From an uncultured Alphaproteobacteria bacterium (GTDB lineage Bacteria; Pseudomonadota; Alphaproteobacteria; Methylaequorales; Methylaequoraceae): DNA of 64,000 bases. Position numbers and translations under genes: made by a program. The stretch spans positions 1 through 64,000 of the forward strand of contig CACJRF010000008.1 of the NCBI GenBank assembly GCA_902595755.1, given 5' to 3'. The notes under the pieces were generated by a model. The model saw only the letters and a program-made list of their open reading frames with translations, ran no database searches and was not told where the DNA came from. Positions 57,638-63,411 of the stretch are shown here, piece by piece (the stretch's first letter is position 1; each line of letters opens with the position of its first letter).

Positions 57638-58109
57638 TAATTCTTAACATAGCAAATGCCCACATAATTAAAAGTACCGATACTATTATATTAAAATTAG
57701 CTAATGATAAACCCATTATTGAAAATAAGATTTCGTTACATTTAGCAATAGGAACCTTTTCTAAGAAATTCCTAAGTTCCTCAATTGTCTCTATATCAGA
57801 TCCAGAAGAAGTACAATTCATTTCATATTTTACTACACCCCTTTCTACTAGACTGTGAAAAGATGCTATAAAAAAATTAGCTATCTGTAAAATTATAAAA
57901 ATAAATAAGAACTCTCTTATTTTTTTAAAAAAGACTAGACCTATACCAAAAATTATTGAGAGCAAATAAGGAATACGTTGGTAAATACATAATTTACACG
58001 GTGGGAAATTAAAAATATATTCAATCAACAAAGTTGAAATTAAAATACAGAAACTCACAGTAATTAACAAATATTCTGTGTTTTTTCTTATGAATTGAAA
58101 ATTGAACAT
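57624..58109 (-). CDS. dsbB: Disulfide bond formation protein DsbB
   Basis: FPPCKLCIYQRIPYLLSI, later Cys pair (NCTSSGS...AKCNE), four TM helices. Confidence 0.92.
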   Translation of the reverse strand: MFNFQFIRKNTEYLLITVSFCILISTLLIEYIFNFPPCKLCIYQRIPYLLSIIFGIGLVFFKKIREFLFIFIILQIANFFIASFHSLVERGVVKYEMNCTSSGSDIETIEELRNFLEKVPIAKCNEILFSIMGLSLANFNIIVSVLLIMWAFAMLRINEQK

Positions 58110-58130
58110 ATAAAGTTATTATTTAGAAGA

Positions 58131-58832
58131 ATGCTAGCATCTTTTAAAAAAAAATTTATAAAAACATCTCTAATCTACTACATATATAGGTATTTTAAAT
58201 ATAAATTTAAATCATTTACCTCTTATGGTGGAAGTGGCGAAGATATTTTTATCGCAAAATTCTTCCGAAATTTTAAAAAAGGTTTCTATGTTGACGTTGG
58301 TGCACTTCATCCAATTAATGGATCTCTTACTTACTTGCTTTATCAAAAAGGATGGAATGGAATTAATATTGATATGATCCAAGAAAATCTAAAACTATTT
58401 AATATTTTTAGAAAAAGAGATATAAATCTTGATATTGCAGTTTCATCGTCAAGGGGTTCCATAAATGCTTACTTATTTGAAGTAGGCTCTGGAGTTAATA
58501 CAAATCAATTGAAAATTGCTAGAGAATGGGAAAATAAAATTAATAAAAATTTTGTGATAAGAAAAGTAAAAAAAAATACACTTAATAATATTTTAATCAG
58601 TAATAAGGTTGTTAAGGAATTTGATTTTTTAAATATTGATGTTGAAGGTCATGAATTTGATGTTCTTAAGGGTCTAAATTTAAAAAAATATAGGCCCAAA
58701 CTTATTTCGATAGAAATTCATGTTTTAAAAACAAAAGAAATCTTTCGCACAAACGTATTTAAGTATTTAAGTAAGAATAATTATGAGCTTGTTTCGCAAT
58801 ACAAACAAACTTCTTTTTTCACACCTAAATGA
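58131..58832 (+). CDS. FkbM-family methyltransferase (start taken at ATG 58131; ORF track starts at TTG 58095)
   Basis: GFYVDVGALHPINGSLTYLLYQKGWNGINIDMIQEN, DFLNIDVEGHEFDVLKGL. Confidence 0.9.
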   Translation: MLASFKKKFIKTSLIYYIYRYFKYKFKSFTSYGGSGEDIFIAKFFRNFKKGFYVDVGALHPINGSLTYLLYQKGWNGINIDMIQENLKLFNIFRKRDINLDIAVSSSRGSINAYLFEVGSGVNTNQLKIAREWENKINKNFVIRKVKKNTLNNILISNKVVKEFDFLNIDVEGHEFDVLKGLNLKKYRPKLISIEIHVLKTKEIFRTNVFKYLSKNNYELVSQYKQTSFFTPK

Positions 58833-58833
58833 T

Positions 58834-59400
58834 TTATAGAAAAAAATATAGTAATAAAATCACTATAAATATCAAACTTAAAGTACCAATATATTTTGGA
58901 ATTAACTCATTAGCTTTTTCCTGAAATTTATAAAATAAATAACAAACTAAAAAAAATCTTAATCCACGAGAAATAAAAGATAAAAGAATAAATAATGCAA
59001 AATTTAAGCTCATAATTCCAGATGCAAAGCATGTTACTTTAAATGGAAAAGGAGAAAATCCACCAATTAATATTAAAGCTATACCATATTCTTTAAATTG
59101 TAAAATAAACGAATTTAGCTTGGCACTAATTGATGGATAGTATTCCAAGAAGAAAAGATTTGCTTGGTCCCATAAAAGTAATCCAATAAAAAAGGAAAAA
59201 CACCCCCCTAGTACAGAGAATATTGTAGTCATTAAGGCGATATGTAAATAATTTTTTTTATTTGCTAAAACAAATGGAATTATAAAAATATCAGTAGGTA
59301 GCGGAAAAATAATTGACTCAAAAAAAGATATTAAGTACAAGTAGTACTTATTTTTTTTCTGATTACATTTTAATAAAATTAATTCATATAACGCTTTCAT
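58834..59400 (-). CDS. VTT/DedA-like (YqaA-type) membrane protein
   Basis: FESIIFPLPTDIFIIPFVLANK, GGFSPFPFKVTCFASGIMSLNFALFILLSFISRGLRFFLV. Confidence 0.85.
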   Translation of the reverse strand: MKALYELILLKCNQKKNKYYLYLISFFESIIFPLPTDIFIIPFVLANKKNYLHIALMTTIFSVLGGCFSFFIGLLLWDQANLFFLEYYPSISAKLNSFILQFKEYGIALILIGGFSPFPFKVTCFASGIMSLNFALFILLSFISRGLRFFLVCYLFYKFQEKANELIPKYIGTLSLIFIVILLLYFFL

Positions 59401-59436
59401 ATTTTAAATTTCAATTTTAAGTAATTTTAATCTTAT

Positions 59437-60129
59437 TTATTTGGAGTCAATAAATTTCATTGCCTCTTTACACGAAATAATTGGAAGTTTTCTAAAGTAT
59501 TTATTATAAAATGTCTCAAATCTTTCTTTTTCAAGTCCCTTTAAAACCCTATAATCATAGTTTTTTTTTTTTTTTAAGATACCAACACCATGATCAATAT
59601 TAACAATCCTAAAATCTAAATTTTTTGACAAGTTTAATTCAACTGCAACTTTCCATACATCACCCGTCCATGTTTTATTCCTCTGCGGAACAAACTCCTC
59701 ATCAGCATTTTGTGGTAACAGGTCATGGAGTAAAATTATACCGTTTGGTTTTAGAAATTTTAAAGCATTTATACAATCTTTCTGGCATTGCTTATAATGA
59801 TGTAGGCCATCAATAAAAATCACATCAAAAAGTATTTTATTTTTTGAAAAGAATTCGTCGCTAGTCATTTTATAATTCCCACCACTTTGTGGATCAACTC
59901 CATATTTATTATTTTCTGAAAGATAAATTGTATCAAATACAGCGTTTTGAAAAACACCAATTTCAAGATATTTTGCTGTTTTTTGTGGAAATTTTCTTAA
60001 CGCTCTATGTATAAAGCTAATTCTATTAAAATTAGCTTTTTCAAAAAAAATTTTGTTTTTACTTTTTATTTTTAGTTTTTTTTTAATATACCAAAAGAAC
60101 TTATACTTTTTTAAATCTTCTAATTTCAT
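59437..60129 (-). CDS. Class I SAM-dependent methyltransferase (Methyltransf_24-like)
   Basis: KYLEIGVFQNAVF, DVIFIDGLHHYKQCQKDCINALKFLKPNGIILLHDLLP; contains A15 (coding sense) tract. Confidence 0.82.
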   Translation of the reverse strand: MKLEDLKKYKFFWYIKKKLKIKSKNKIFFEKANFNRISFIHRALRKFPQKTAKYLEIGVFQNAVFDTIYLSENNKYGVDPQSGGNYKMTSDEFFSKNKILFDVIFIDGLHHYKQCQKDCINALKFLKPNGIILLHDLLPQNADEEFVPQRNKTWTGDVWKVAVELNLSKNLDFRIVNIDHGVGILKKKKNYDYRVLKGLEKERFETFYNKYFRKLPIISCKEAMKFIDSK

Positions 60130-60145
60130 AATCTATTCTTTAAAG

Positions 60146-61105
60146 TTAGTTTTTATAATTTGAATCTGATTTGTATAATTTATTTAAATTTTGACTTATT
60201 GGAAGTAGAAAAAAAAATATATATATTCCTAAAAATTTTATATAAAATCGCCAAATTTTATTCTTAAAAACTATTTTTGATCTTATTAGGCAAAAATATT
60301 TGGAAAAAATTATTTTTTTAAATTGAGGAACTAAAAAGTTGAGATGAATTAAACTATCATTATTATTTACTCTTTTTATATAATTTACATATCTACACTT
60401 TGGTCTTAAAATCTCAAAAACTTTATTCATTCTTTTTAATCTGTAAGGGTTAGAAACTATATTTTTAACTTTAAAAAAAGGAAGTTTTCTATTTAAAAAT
60501 AAATCGATACATTTTTCATCAGCAAATAGGTCTCTAGAACAGTTTGTAAGAAGTGTATTGCATTTCATTCCATTTTTTAACAGCCCCTGAGTTAAACCAA
60601 TTTCATATTTTCTTACTAATTCACTTTTTGAGCTTACTTTTTTTATGCCTGAAAAAAAATCTTTAAAAAATTTACTGCTTAAACATTTTTTTTTAAAAAA
60701 AATAAAATAACTTTGAATATGGTAATTTTTTCCCTTGCCTGCGGAGGTAATACCCCAAAAATCACATTTTTGAAATTTAATATTTTCTAAAATAAGATTT
60801 AAATTCATAAATGGACCAATAACCGAGTCATTTATTAGAAGAATATTTTCTTTTTTTTTCTTTTTAATGAATTCCAATCCAACTTTCCAACTTCCGAAGT
60901 CCATTTCGTTATGTTCACTCACTATAACTTTTTCTACAAAACTTATTTTTTTTTGTTCTTTTTTTTTTATAGAAATATTACTAACAAAGATTATAGTGAA
61001 AAATTTACTGTATTTTTTAAGCGACTCAATTATGTGAAAATCAATAATTCCCATCCTGTCATAAAAGGCGTATATGAGATAGTTATTACTTGATTTATAT
61101 TTCAT
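60146..61105 (-). CDS. RgpF-like (rhamnan synthesis F) glycan protein
   Basis: EMDFGSWKVGLEF, LLINDSVIGPF, CDFWGIT, YHIQSYFIFFKK. Confidence 0.8.
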   Translation of the reverse strand: MKYKSSNNYLIYAFYDRMGIIDFHIIESLKKYSKFFTIIFVSNISIKKKEQKKISFVEKVIVSEHNEMDFGSWKVGLEFIKKKKKENILLINDSVIGPFMNLNLILENIKFQKCDFWGITSAGKGKNYHIQSYFIFFKKKCLSSKFFKDFFSGIKKVSSKSELVRKYEIGLTQGLLKNGMKCNTLLTNCSRDLFADEKCIDLFLNRKLPFFKVKNIVSNPYRLKRMNKVFEILRPKCRYVNYIKRVNNNDSLIHLNFLVPQFKKIIFSKYFCLIRSKIVFKNKIWRFYIKFLGIYIFFFLLPISQNLNKLYKSDSNYKN

Positions 61106-61109
61106 TTCA

Positions 61110-61850
61110 TCAAAATTTAAAATTTTTTAGATGTCTCCAAAGTCTTTTCAAACCCTTTGGTGCGTTTGTTTTTCTTCTTTTTGGCCATTTTCTTGTTGGG
61201 TCTAGTATTGTTCTATCTAGACCAATATCAATAACTGCCGGCTGCTCTATTATTACAGTATAAAATCCTTTATCCTTATACGTAACACCAATATCTAATT
61301 CATTTTTATATCCACTATATCCTCCTATCAGATTATAATCAGACATTCTTTTTATGCCCGGCCTAAAAGAAAAATAACCCCATTCCCAACCATCTTTACA
61401 AAATACCTTTCTAAAACCTATTTTTCCTACTTTTTGAAGGGTGCCATATTCAAAAATGTTAAGTCTACTTGCGCTTTCTTTACTTTCTAACCACACTTGA
61501 ATAATTTTTTCATCAGTAGACATAATTTTAAATGAATCTTCTATAAATTTTTCCCTTGTATAAACCCAATCGTCCTCACAATGAAAAATAAATGGTGTTT
61601 TCACTTTTTTATAAGTATCTACAATTGAGGTGATCTGACCTTTTTTTTTTTTATTAAAAATTAACTTTAACTTTTTGTCCCATTTTTTTCTGATATGGTT
61701 ATAAATTTCTTCATTCACAGAATCCTCAACGAGAAACAACTCCTTACATTTATAAGAGTTATATTTAAAAAAACTTTCTAGTGTTTTGTCTAGTAAGTCA
61801 ATCCTACCGCAACTAGTTAGAACAAAAGTGATTTCTTTTTTCATAATCAA
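61110..61850 (-). CDS. Family 2-like glycosyltransferase
   Basis: ITFVLTSCGRIDLLDKTLESF, FIFHCEDDWVY. Confidence 0.87.
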   Translation of the reverse strand: MIMKKEITFVLTSCGRIDLLDKTLESFFKYNSYKCKELFLVEDSVNEEIYNHIRKKWDKKLKLIFNKKKKGQITSIVDTYKKVKTPFIFHCEDDWVYTREKFIEDSFKIMSTDEKIIQVWLESKESASRLNIFEYGTLQKVGKIGFRKVFCKDGWEWGYFSFRPGIKRMSDYNLIGGYSGYKNELDIGVTYKDKGFYTVIIEQPAVIDIGLDRTILDPTRKWPKRRKTNAPKGLKRLWRHLKNFKF

Positions 61851-62091: not shown

Positions 62092-62178
62092 GCCCCTATG
62101 GCGGAATTGGTAGACGCGACGGATTCAAAATCCGTTGAACTTCGGTTCATGTCCGTTCGAGTCGGACTAGGGGTACCA
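62092..62178 (+). tRNA. tRNA-Leu (anticodon CAA)
   Basis: GCCCCTATGGCGGAATTGGTAGACGCGACGGATTCAAAATCCGTTGAACTTCGGTTCATGTCCGTTCGAGTCGGACTAGGGGTACCA: 7-bp acceptor, anticodon stem ACGGA/TCCGT with loop TTCAAAA, long variable arm, encoded CCA. Confidence 0.96.
62122..62178 (+). repeat. Direct repeat copy 1 (3' part of tRNA-Leu, attL-like)
   Basis: 57 nt GATTCAAAATCCGTTGAACTTCGGTTCATGTCCGTTCGAGTCGGACTAGGGGTACCA, identical to 63355-63411. Confidence 0.97.
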
Positions 62179-62212
62179 TATAAAGTGAATGGGGGTAAGG
62201 ATTTTTTGTTTA

Positions 62213-62346
62213 CTAGTAATTTTCTTGAAAGAATTTTCCATTATTACAGACATCGACACTAATATTTTCATATGAGTAGAAAATAAACTAACAAAGTCTT
62301 TCAAGAATAAAAATAATTACTTAATTAACTAATCTTCAATTACTAG
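62213..62346. repeat. Nested inverted repeats (CTAGTAATT/AATTACTAG enclosing TTCTTGAAAGA/TCTTTCAAGAA)
   Basis: Arms 62213-62221/62338-62346 (9/9) and 62222-62232/62297-62307 (11/11). Confidence 0.75.
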
Positions 62347-62408
62347 GTATATCCGTGATTTAGTGCATTTTAATTTTAAACAAATTTATTAAATCTTTAG
62401 TTTTTGAA

Positions 62409-63122
62409 TTACCTGGGATCATATTGATACTTTTCAATCAATTTATTTATATCTGTATCTGTTTTTTTAAATCTAAGATGAGCAATTCTCCCAATTACTT
62501 CGATATCAAACAACTGATGAAGAATTTGGTAATAATTCCTATTTCTAAAGTCATCAACTATAATTGAAATCTTATCATTTTTACTTTTTAATAAAAATTT
62601 ATAAACAAAGAGACAGCATAAAACTCTATACCTTCCATCAATTAATACAAAATCTGGTTGTTTTTGATCTCTTATAATCTTTTTCAATATATAGCTTGCA
62701 TATTTGATTGCCCTTCTGTTTAAATAAAATCTTCTTATGCTCGAAAATACAGGTGTAGAAAAAAAGAAAACAACCCCAAGACTAACAAGTATATAATTTT
62801 CTTTAAAATTTGATTTTAAAAAATTAAAAAAATTTGCATCACTTTCAACAGCATAAAAATCTTTATCTAATTTTTTTGCAAGCAAGGTTGAATTCCCTGA
62901 GCCATATTCCAAATAGCACTTAGACTTTAAAAGTTTATAAAAATAGAAATTAGTTGCTTTCTTTGAACCAAAATTAATATGAGTTGACACATTGTAATTT
63001 GGTCTAATGTAACTTTTAAATCTTAAATAGTGATAAGGTATGCTAAAATTTCTAAAAATATAAAAAGGAATTAAAATTATTAAAATAAAGTAGCTATAAA
63101 ATCGGTAATTTTTTAGAAACAT
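62409..63122 (-). CDS. Hypothetical membrane-anchored class I methyltransferase-like protein
   Basis: N-terminal TM segment, CYLEYGSGNSTLLAKKL (SAM-motif-I-like), PDFVLIDGRYRVLCCLFVYKFL, IIVDDFRNRNYY. Confidence 0.7.
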   Translation of the reverse strand: MFLKNYRFYSYFILIILIPFYIFRNFSIPYHYLRFKSYIRPNYNVSTHINFGSKKATNFYFYKLLKSKCYLEYGSGNSTLLAKKLDKDFYAVESDANFFNFLKSNFKENYILVSLGVVFFFSTPVFSSIRRFYLNRRAIKYASYILKKIIRDQKQPDFVLIDGRYRVLCCLFVYKFLLKSKNDKISIIVDDFRNRNYYQILHQLFDIEVIGRIAHLRFKKTDTDINKLIEKYQYDPR

Positions 63123-63282
63123 TTTTTGAATATAAATGCTTAATGTTTAATAATTATTACAAACTAAAACCTCTGAATAAATCTTCCCATAATTCAGTAA
63201 ATTTCAAAAGCCTTACTCTCCATTTCATTGCTAAGGTTATTGCTTTCCCATTCATAGGTAAATTTTAGAGATTTTGAAAAAA

Positions 63283-63307
63283 AAAGTGTGATAGTAAAGT
63301 GTGATAG
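63283..63307. repeat. Two tandem copies of AAAGTGTGATAG (13-bp period)
   Basis: AAAGTGTGATAG at 63283-63294 and 63296-63307. Confidence 0.8.
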
Positions 63308-63354
63308 AAAAAACTTTATCAATTGAAATCAACTACTTACAATCAAACGCAACT

Positions 63355-63411
63355 GATTCAAAATCCGTTGAACTTCGGTTCATGTCCGTTCGAGTCGGAC
63401 TAGGGGTACCA
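63355..63411 (+). repeat. Direct repeat copy 2 (tRNA-Leu 3' fragment, attR-like)
   Basis: 57/57 identity with 62122-62178; lacks the tRNA 5' half. Confidence 0.97.

Follow-up and report, generated by a model that had tools for sequence, protein, structure and literature searches.

The locus examined here raises the question of how part of a tRNA gene came to stand a second time, a short way downstream of the gene itself, and whether the DNA enclosed between the two is a relic or a unit that still moves. The only tRNA gene that ARAGORN found in the window, by which the whole 64-kb stretch of DNA that was analysed is meant, is tRNA-Leu(CAA) at 62092–62178 on the forward strand. As the initial annotation reported, the 57 bp of its 3′ part (62122–62178) recur exactly at 63355–63411, a match too long to be due to chance. 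The similarity was also said to run further 5′, and a BLAST search of the whole genome carries the match back to 63347, so that 63347–63411 corresponds to tRNA positions 23–87 (97% identity, E 1.7e-25). The 1.3-Mb assembly (G000; 36 contigs, 87.5% complete) holds two copies of tRNA-Leu(CAA), both at the window locus, and all other matches are short. The worry that the duplicate might be an assembly artefact can be set aside, as the same arrangement is present in many independent assemblies.

The DNA from the base after the CCA of the tRNA to the end of the displaced 3′ copy is a mobile cassette of 1,233 bp (62179–63411, forward strand), and its limits are placed where identity to the units of two other genomes, G009 and G004, stops at both boundaries. 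It was noted at first sight to have one substantial ORF and no recombinase, and this is borne out: the cargo is a 237-amino acid ORF on the reverse strand (62409–63122) with no match in Pfam or NCBIfam, for which the best clue is a methyltransferase-like protein found in a search of PDB sequences (3cvo, E 5.7e-7). The distal end of the cassette, read on the forward strand, is more elaborate. It starts with a TTTTGAAAAAAAAA tract that marks the outer edge of an att module (63272–63285), followed by two direct repeats of GTGTGATAG at −61 (63286–63294) and −48 (63299–63307) from the tRNA copy, which are presumed to be integrase arm-type sites and are the only two occurrences of this sequence on the forward strand of the window. 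An IHF-like site at −20, AATCAACTACTTA (63327–63339), fits the IHF consensus WATCAANNNNTTR. The left core half-site CAACTGATT (63350–63358) is borne by the cassette, the tRNA having CGACGGATT instead, and it leads into the displaced tRNA 3′ part (63355–63411, forward strand). In the tRNA gene, which is the integration target (attB), identity to the displaced copy starts with the anticodon stem-loop GATTCAAAATC (62122–62132, forward strand), the stretch that must contain the crossover, and the gene remains whole, its 3′ part being supplied anew by the cassette. Taken with the evidence from related genomes given below, the window probably contains a single unit of a system of gene cassettes anchored at a tRNA, with an integrase acting in trans.

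Directly upstream of the tRNA, at 58095–61850, are methyltransferase, glycosyltransferase and RgpF-like genes, and the content of this upstream region differs in some relatives, so that there is a variable region on both sides of the tRNA.

Cassette arrays in the family

The comparison covered 32 genomes of the family, including that of the window. These are probably marine alphaproteobacteria of the order HIMB59 (formerly AEGEAN-169, SAR11 subclade V), an assignment based on the marine names of the records, the literature (PMC12416821, PMC10734472) and the gene order of the phosphate island. The same tRNA 3′ end is found in marine single-cell genomes (AG- and AH- series) and in marine MAGs (TMED13, MED657, MED715). 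Partial copies of tRNA-Leu(CAA) are present in 27 of the 32 genomes and in 9 of 12 genera; in the other five, either the genome is incomplete, a contig breaks off close to the tRNA, or the tRNA itself gave no match. Nearly all copies begin at tRNA position 23–32 (around 23, 28 or 30) and run to the 3′ end at position 87, and most follow the intact tRNA and point the same way, one to six of them per array. A cassette is made up of cargo, a distal att module and the 3′ part of tRNA-Leu(CAA), and cassettes are arrayed behind the tRNA. Those bounded by tRNA copies are about 0.7–12 kb long and often hold one gene. Cutting at the copies gave 76 intervals with a median of 2.0 kb, counts to which contig-start pieces and non-cassettes (L067–L069, L071) add some noise, and 38 of the 76 have a single ORF of at least 120 amino acids, in either orientation; fusion or decay of units probably accounts for some intervals, of up to 12 kb. 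It had been asked whether all close relatives carry the same segment at this tRNA. They do not, and hold different cassettes there, in differing order.

Four genomes also have degenerate, near full-length tRNA-Leu copies some 2–5 kb upstream of the intact gene (L042:4844, L047:4392, L045:2421 and L053:1995), and these are possibly older, displaced target genes.

Arrays of this kind could also be built from decayed integrative elements (CIMEs, as known from the biology of ICEs), whose own integrase is lost and whose movement now depends in cis on a neighbour that has one and inserts beside them. CIMEs have been documented to accrete at tRNA and ssrA sites (PMC5704250), 15 of the Dehalococcoides ssrA islands are without an integration module (PMC3146451), several large intervals are present in the arrays, and the cassettes, like CIMEs, have attL/attR flanks and are without integration or transfer genes. 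Nevertheless, such an origin is unlikely. Among the array ORFs examined, with gaps left by contig breaks, no integrase was found by a PF00589 search of the 32 genomes or by Pfam (none of the 25 of 156 families viewed in the tally of array content is an integrase), and the integrase-bearing neighbour that mobilisation in cis calls for was likewise not found in these arrays. Moreover, single cassettes recur alone between different neighbours, and single-gene units of 0.7–1.2 kb recur intact, unlike the products of random deletion.

An att module shared by unrelated cassettes

What is new here is a module of about 75 bp at the distal end of each cassette that is common to unrelated cargo. The roughly 75 bp before the tRNA copy are alike (E < 1e-4) in 507 of 2,535 pairs of cassettes with unrelated cargo, and the corresponding figures are 9 of 1,559 pairs at the tRNA-proximal end and none of 2,535 pairs for random internal 75-mers used as a control. 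The module consists of two direct repeats and a left core half-site, usually with an IHF-like site in type I. Typing by repeat sequence, in which a few borderline assignments are uncertain, distinguished 29 type I modules (GTGTGATAG) in 22 genomes, 19 type II modules (CATTGATAC) in 14 genomes, and the smaller groups III and IV. The repeats of types I and II lie at −61 and −48 from the copy with a 13-bp pitch, though their sequences are unrelated. The IHF consensus is present at −20 in 21 of the 29 type I modules, in two of type II and in one of type III (background 0.012 per 87 nt), and the TTTTGAAAAAA of the tract in the window recurs close to 26 of 74 modules, where 0.006 per 70 nt would be expected; these motif counts are not independent, as the modules are related by descent, and the same geometry in two unrelated repeat sequences is the stronger evidence. 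Most genomes of the family have three genes of the HU/IHF family. Strong matches to the module anywhere in these genomes adjoin a tRNA-Leu copy, and none was found outside the family among 386 genomes of the class.

The copies read CAACT before GATTCAAAATCC and the tRNA reads CGACG, the two differing up to this point and agreeing from it onwards, which places the crossover within the anticodon stem-loop. The geometry of a lambda-type attP, with arm-type repeats, an IHF site and a core, is present on one side, and the module resembles one arm of such a site, the roles of the arm and of IHF being presumed from geometry and consensus. The initial suggestion of tRNA-targeted, site-specific integration by a tyrosine-type integrase is well supported. 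A tRNA-proximal motif like TCTAAACTCAATGTGAGTAAGGGTTTTAGA was observed in a subset of cassettes with different cargo (L037, L055, L056, L061 and L062), a possible second att arm.

The arrays also have a polarity, in that the likeness of displaced copies to the tRNA declines with distance from it (Spearman −0.41, p 0.006, n = 44; permutation within 12 arrays, p 0.008). The means by array position are not strictly ordered, as mean identity at position 1 is pulled down by one degenerate copy. This divergence with distance fits entry at the tRNA and ageing outward.

Transfer between genera

Many intervals match over their full length between genomes, with whole-unit identity of 98–99% across genera. 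The window cassette itself is also found in G009 (98.6% identity) and G004 (98.5%), both of other genera, with a coverage of 0.99–1.00 both ways, whereas core genes near the tRNA are 62–80% identical between the window genome and G009 and 58–78% between it and G004. A 4.3-kb cassette is shared at 99.2–99.4% by G014, G018 and G019, in which it takes array positions 2, 2 and 3, respectively, and a cassette with a 309-amino acid FkbM-type methyltransferase is found in five genomes at differing positions. The cleanest pairs are 97–99% identical in the first 150 bp inside the unit and 30–50% just outside. These observations also bear on the three origins first offered for the locus. Mobilisation in trans fares best, and neither a decayed island nor the scar of a larger element agrees with a 1,233-bp unit that is found complete, from one end to the other, in two further genera between unrelated flanks, and with similar units arrayed in relatives.

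The spread of cassettes might instead be due mainly to homologous recombination between tRNA-Leu copies and conserved neighbours, with site-specific integration an ancient event. The tRNA and its copies of 57–65 bp do offer short homology, a process of this sort has been invoked for the HIMB59 phosphate island (PMC10734472), and two pairs share the right neighbour as well (right flanks 93–99%), so that adjacent cassettes sometimes travel or persist together. As the main route it is quite improbable, however, because 57–65 bp is short, the flanks are unrelated in most pairs and the order of the cassettes varies freely, and because it gives no role to a conserved module of fixed geometry. Homologous recombination between the conserved tRNA copies could still be an additional route for exchanging existing cassettes.

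Some pairs differ in the last 150 bp and have the same cargo joined to another module. One such cargo, an MFS transporter, is followed by type I in G018 and by type II in G008, G023 and G028, and it seems that cargo is able to change its att module. The loci of this cargo are L048:8840–11239 for type I and L053:9377–12507, L057:3162–6308 and L059 for type II.

Phosphate genes as cargo

The 4.3-kb cassette carries an alkaline phosphatase and the ornithine-lipid enzymes OlsA and OlsB, is 99% identical across genera, and is plausibly a kit for phosphate limitation. Its fourth gene (L044:7295–7843) matches PycTM, the membrane domain of Pycsar effectors (E 5.3e-16), which is unexpected company for phosphate genes.

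A module with a tRNA copy is also found at a second location, remote from the tRNA and bounded by the pst genes and ppx/ppk, in six genomes that belong to two genera. These remnants adjoin an operon of alkaline phosphatase, OlsA-like and OlsB-like genes, which is related to and the same operon as that of the 4.3-kb cassette in the tRNA arrays, and a SixA-like gene. Exchange of the HIMB59 phosphate island has been credited to homologous recombination, with no tRNA seen at its borders (PMC10734472). Since remnants of module and tRNA lie inside the island, the present findings suggest that site-specific insertion contributed to it. The six loci (L247, L248, L249, L250, L251 and L252) have type I att modules and tRNA-Leu 3′ copies and no intact tRNA, and the SixA-like gene is on different sides in the two genera.

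The search for a recombinase

Recombinases of the XerC/XerD type are present in nearly all of the 32 genomes and phage-type integrases in about twelve, those that could be placed being at tRNA-Ser, tRNA-Thr(TGT) and tRNA-Leu(GAG). None of the neighbourhoods of phage-type integrases inspected contains a Leu(CAA) module, and among the 32 genomes no competent phage-type integrase consistently co-occurs with the cassettes. G018, G019 and G004, which hold recent cassettes and are 78–96% complete, have no catalytically complete phage-type integrase. Given this, and arrays without an integrase, the enzyme probably acts in trans and comes from a phage or other element that has not been sampled. Searches of IMG/VR for a helper phage with exact 3′-end, core and arm patterns returned nothing or chance matches in coding sequence, and INPHARED gave one weak match to a Moraxella phage.

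It had been proposed to look for an integrase near another tRNA-Leu, and one does lie beside tRNA-Leu(GAG), although its catalytic residues are lost. This DUF6538 gene (G000:C10:19507–20730 in the window genome, reverse strand, locus L164; homologues at L154–L171) is present in 20 of the 32 genomes, in most as one copy, and wherever the assembly covers that end it lies directly downstream of tRNA-Leu(GAG). Its fixed position and purifying selection (dN/dS 0.11–0.20) would suit a resident cassette recombinase comparable to the IntI of an integron. Such a role is very improbable and was rejected, as the alignment shows the box I arginine and the HxxR motif to be gone in all members examined, and the gene is missing from G004, a 96% complete genome with a fresh shared cassette; from its sequence, the protein is apparently a domesticated, inactive integrase. 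It is just as hard to credit that XerC/XerD insert the cassettes in the way that they insert elements targeting dif, since these recombinases, though nearly universal in the family, have no arm-binding domain, which leaves the spaced repeats unexplained, and the core is unlike dif.

The core CAACTGATT also resembles the anticodon stem of tRNA-Thr(TGT), but the elements at that tRNA are without arm-like repeats. The window genome has a 451-amino acid tyrosine integrase (PF00589) directly behind its tRNA-Thr(TGT) (G000:C2:115924–117276, reverse strand, L146), which is 91% identical in G015, of another genus.

In the reading preferred here, of cassettes served in trans, a tyrosine integrase with an arm-binding domain, aided by IHF, would join a circular cassette to the anticodon-loop region of the tRNA. 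The copy on the incoming cassette would rebuild the tRNA 3′ end, and the old 3′ end, displaced downstream, would become the next repeat, so that successive insertions would grow the array outward from the tRNA. The integrase would not be encoded by the cassettes, and would come from an unsampled phage or other element. The anatomy of the cassettes and their transfer are seen in the genomes themselves; the enzyme and the vehicle of the cassettes are what we infer.

Relation to known systems and significance

Several known systems share features with these arrays. In Ca. Actinomarinales, additive flexible genomic islands are described as small cassettes at tRNA genes with envelope-related cargo (PMC7771536), and Ca. 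Methylopumilus has tRNA-Lys repeats at its additive islands (PMC10872708). The variable cassettes and tRNA 3′-end repeats that define such islands are found here too: the cassettes are small, sit at a tRNA of which part is repeated at each end, and vary among strains. Cross-genus transfer is recent here, however, at 98–99% identity compared with about 75% reported for Actinomarinales (PMC7771536), and a conserved att module, defined here by its arm-like repeats and IHF-like site, goes unmentioned in the available parts of both accounts (PMC7771536, PMC10872708). The tycheposons of Prochlorococcus (Hackl et al. 2023), summarised in PMC10872708 as elements of 4–200 kb with a tyrosine recombinase, are likewise tRNA-anchored cargo elements of streamlined marine bacteria; going by that summary, the units here are mostly smaller and without a tyrosine recombinase. 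The Dehalococcoides ssrA islands, 16 of which have serine integrases (PMC3146451), and CIMEs also show tandem accretion behind an RNA gene, 3′-end repeats between units and some units free of an integrase module, whereas the units examined here are all integrase-free, many are single-gene and the site is the anticodon loop.

The likeness to integrons lies in promiscuous arrays of single-gene cassettes with a recombination site at one end, a fixed entry site and a recombinase that the cassettes do not encode, and, as in integrons, cassettes common to several arrays are found in different order. The differences are that there is no intI or attI (the PF00589 search of the 32 genomes found no intI beside an array), that the site is based on a tRNA with arm-type repeats, and that cargo lies in both orientations. 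Integron attC sites are imperfect palindromes that are recombined as single strands; the repeats here consist of the 3′ part of the tRNA, with arm-like direct repeats before it. The case combines traits of additive islands, CIMEs and integrons, with integrase-free and often single-gene units, a module of several types and movement across genera.

In the surface ocean, streamlined bacteria of this kind are common. The integrase that is missing presents a clear target for identification, and a defined cassette predicts excised circles with a known junction. As the cassettes have recognisable ends, gene flow in the order can be counted from sequence alone. Finally, and more tentatively, since we hold it at somewhat short of even chances, the arrays may represent an active, integron-like capture of genes that is independent of IntI and attC, in which tRNA-Leu(CAA) would be the entry site, a double-stranded module of about 75 bp in several specificity classes would be the tag and a trans-acting integrase would load the arrays, so that single genes and small operons, the phosphate-stress operon included, would spread across a whole order of streamlined ocean bacteria.
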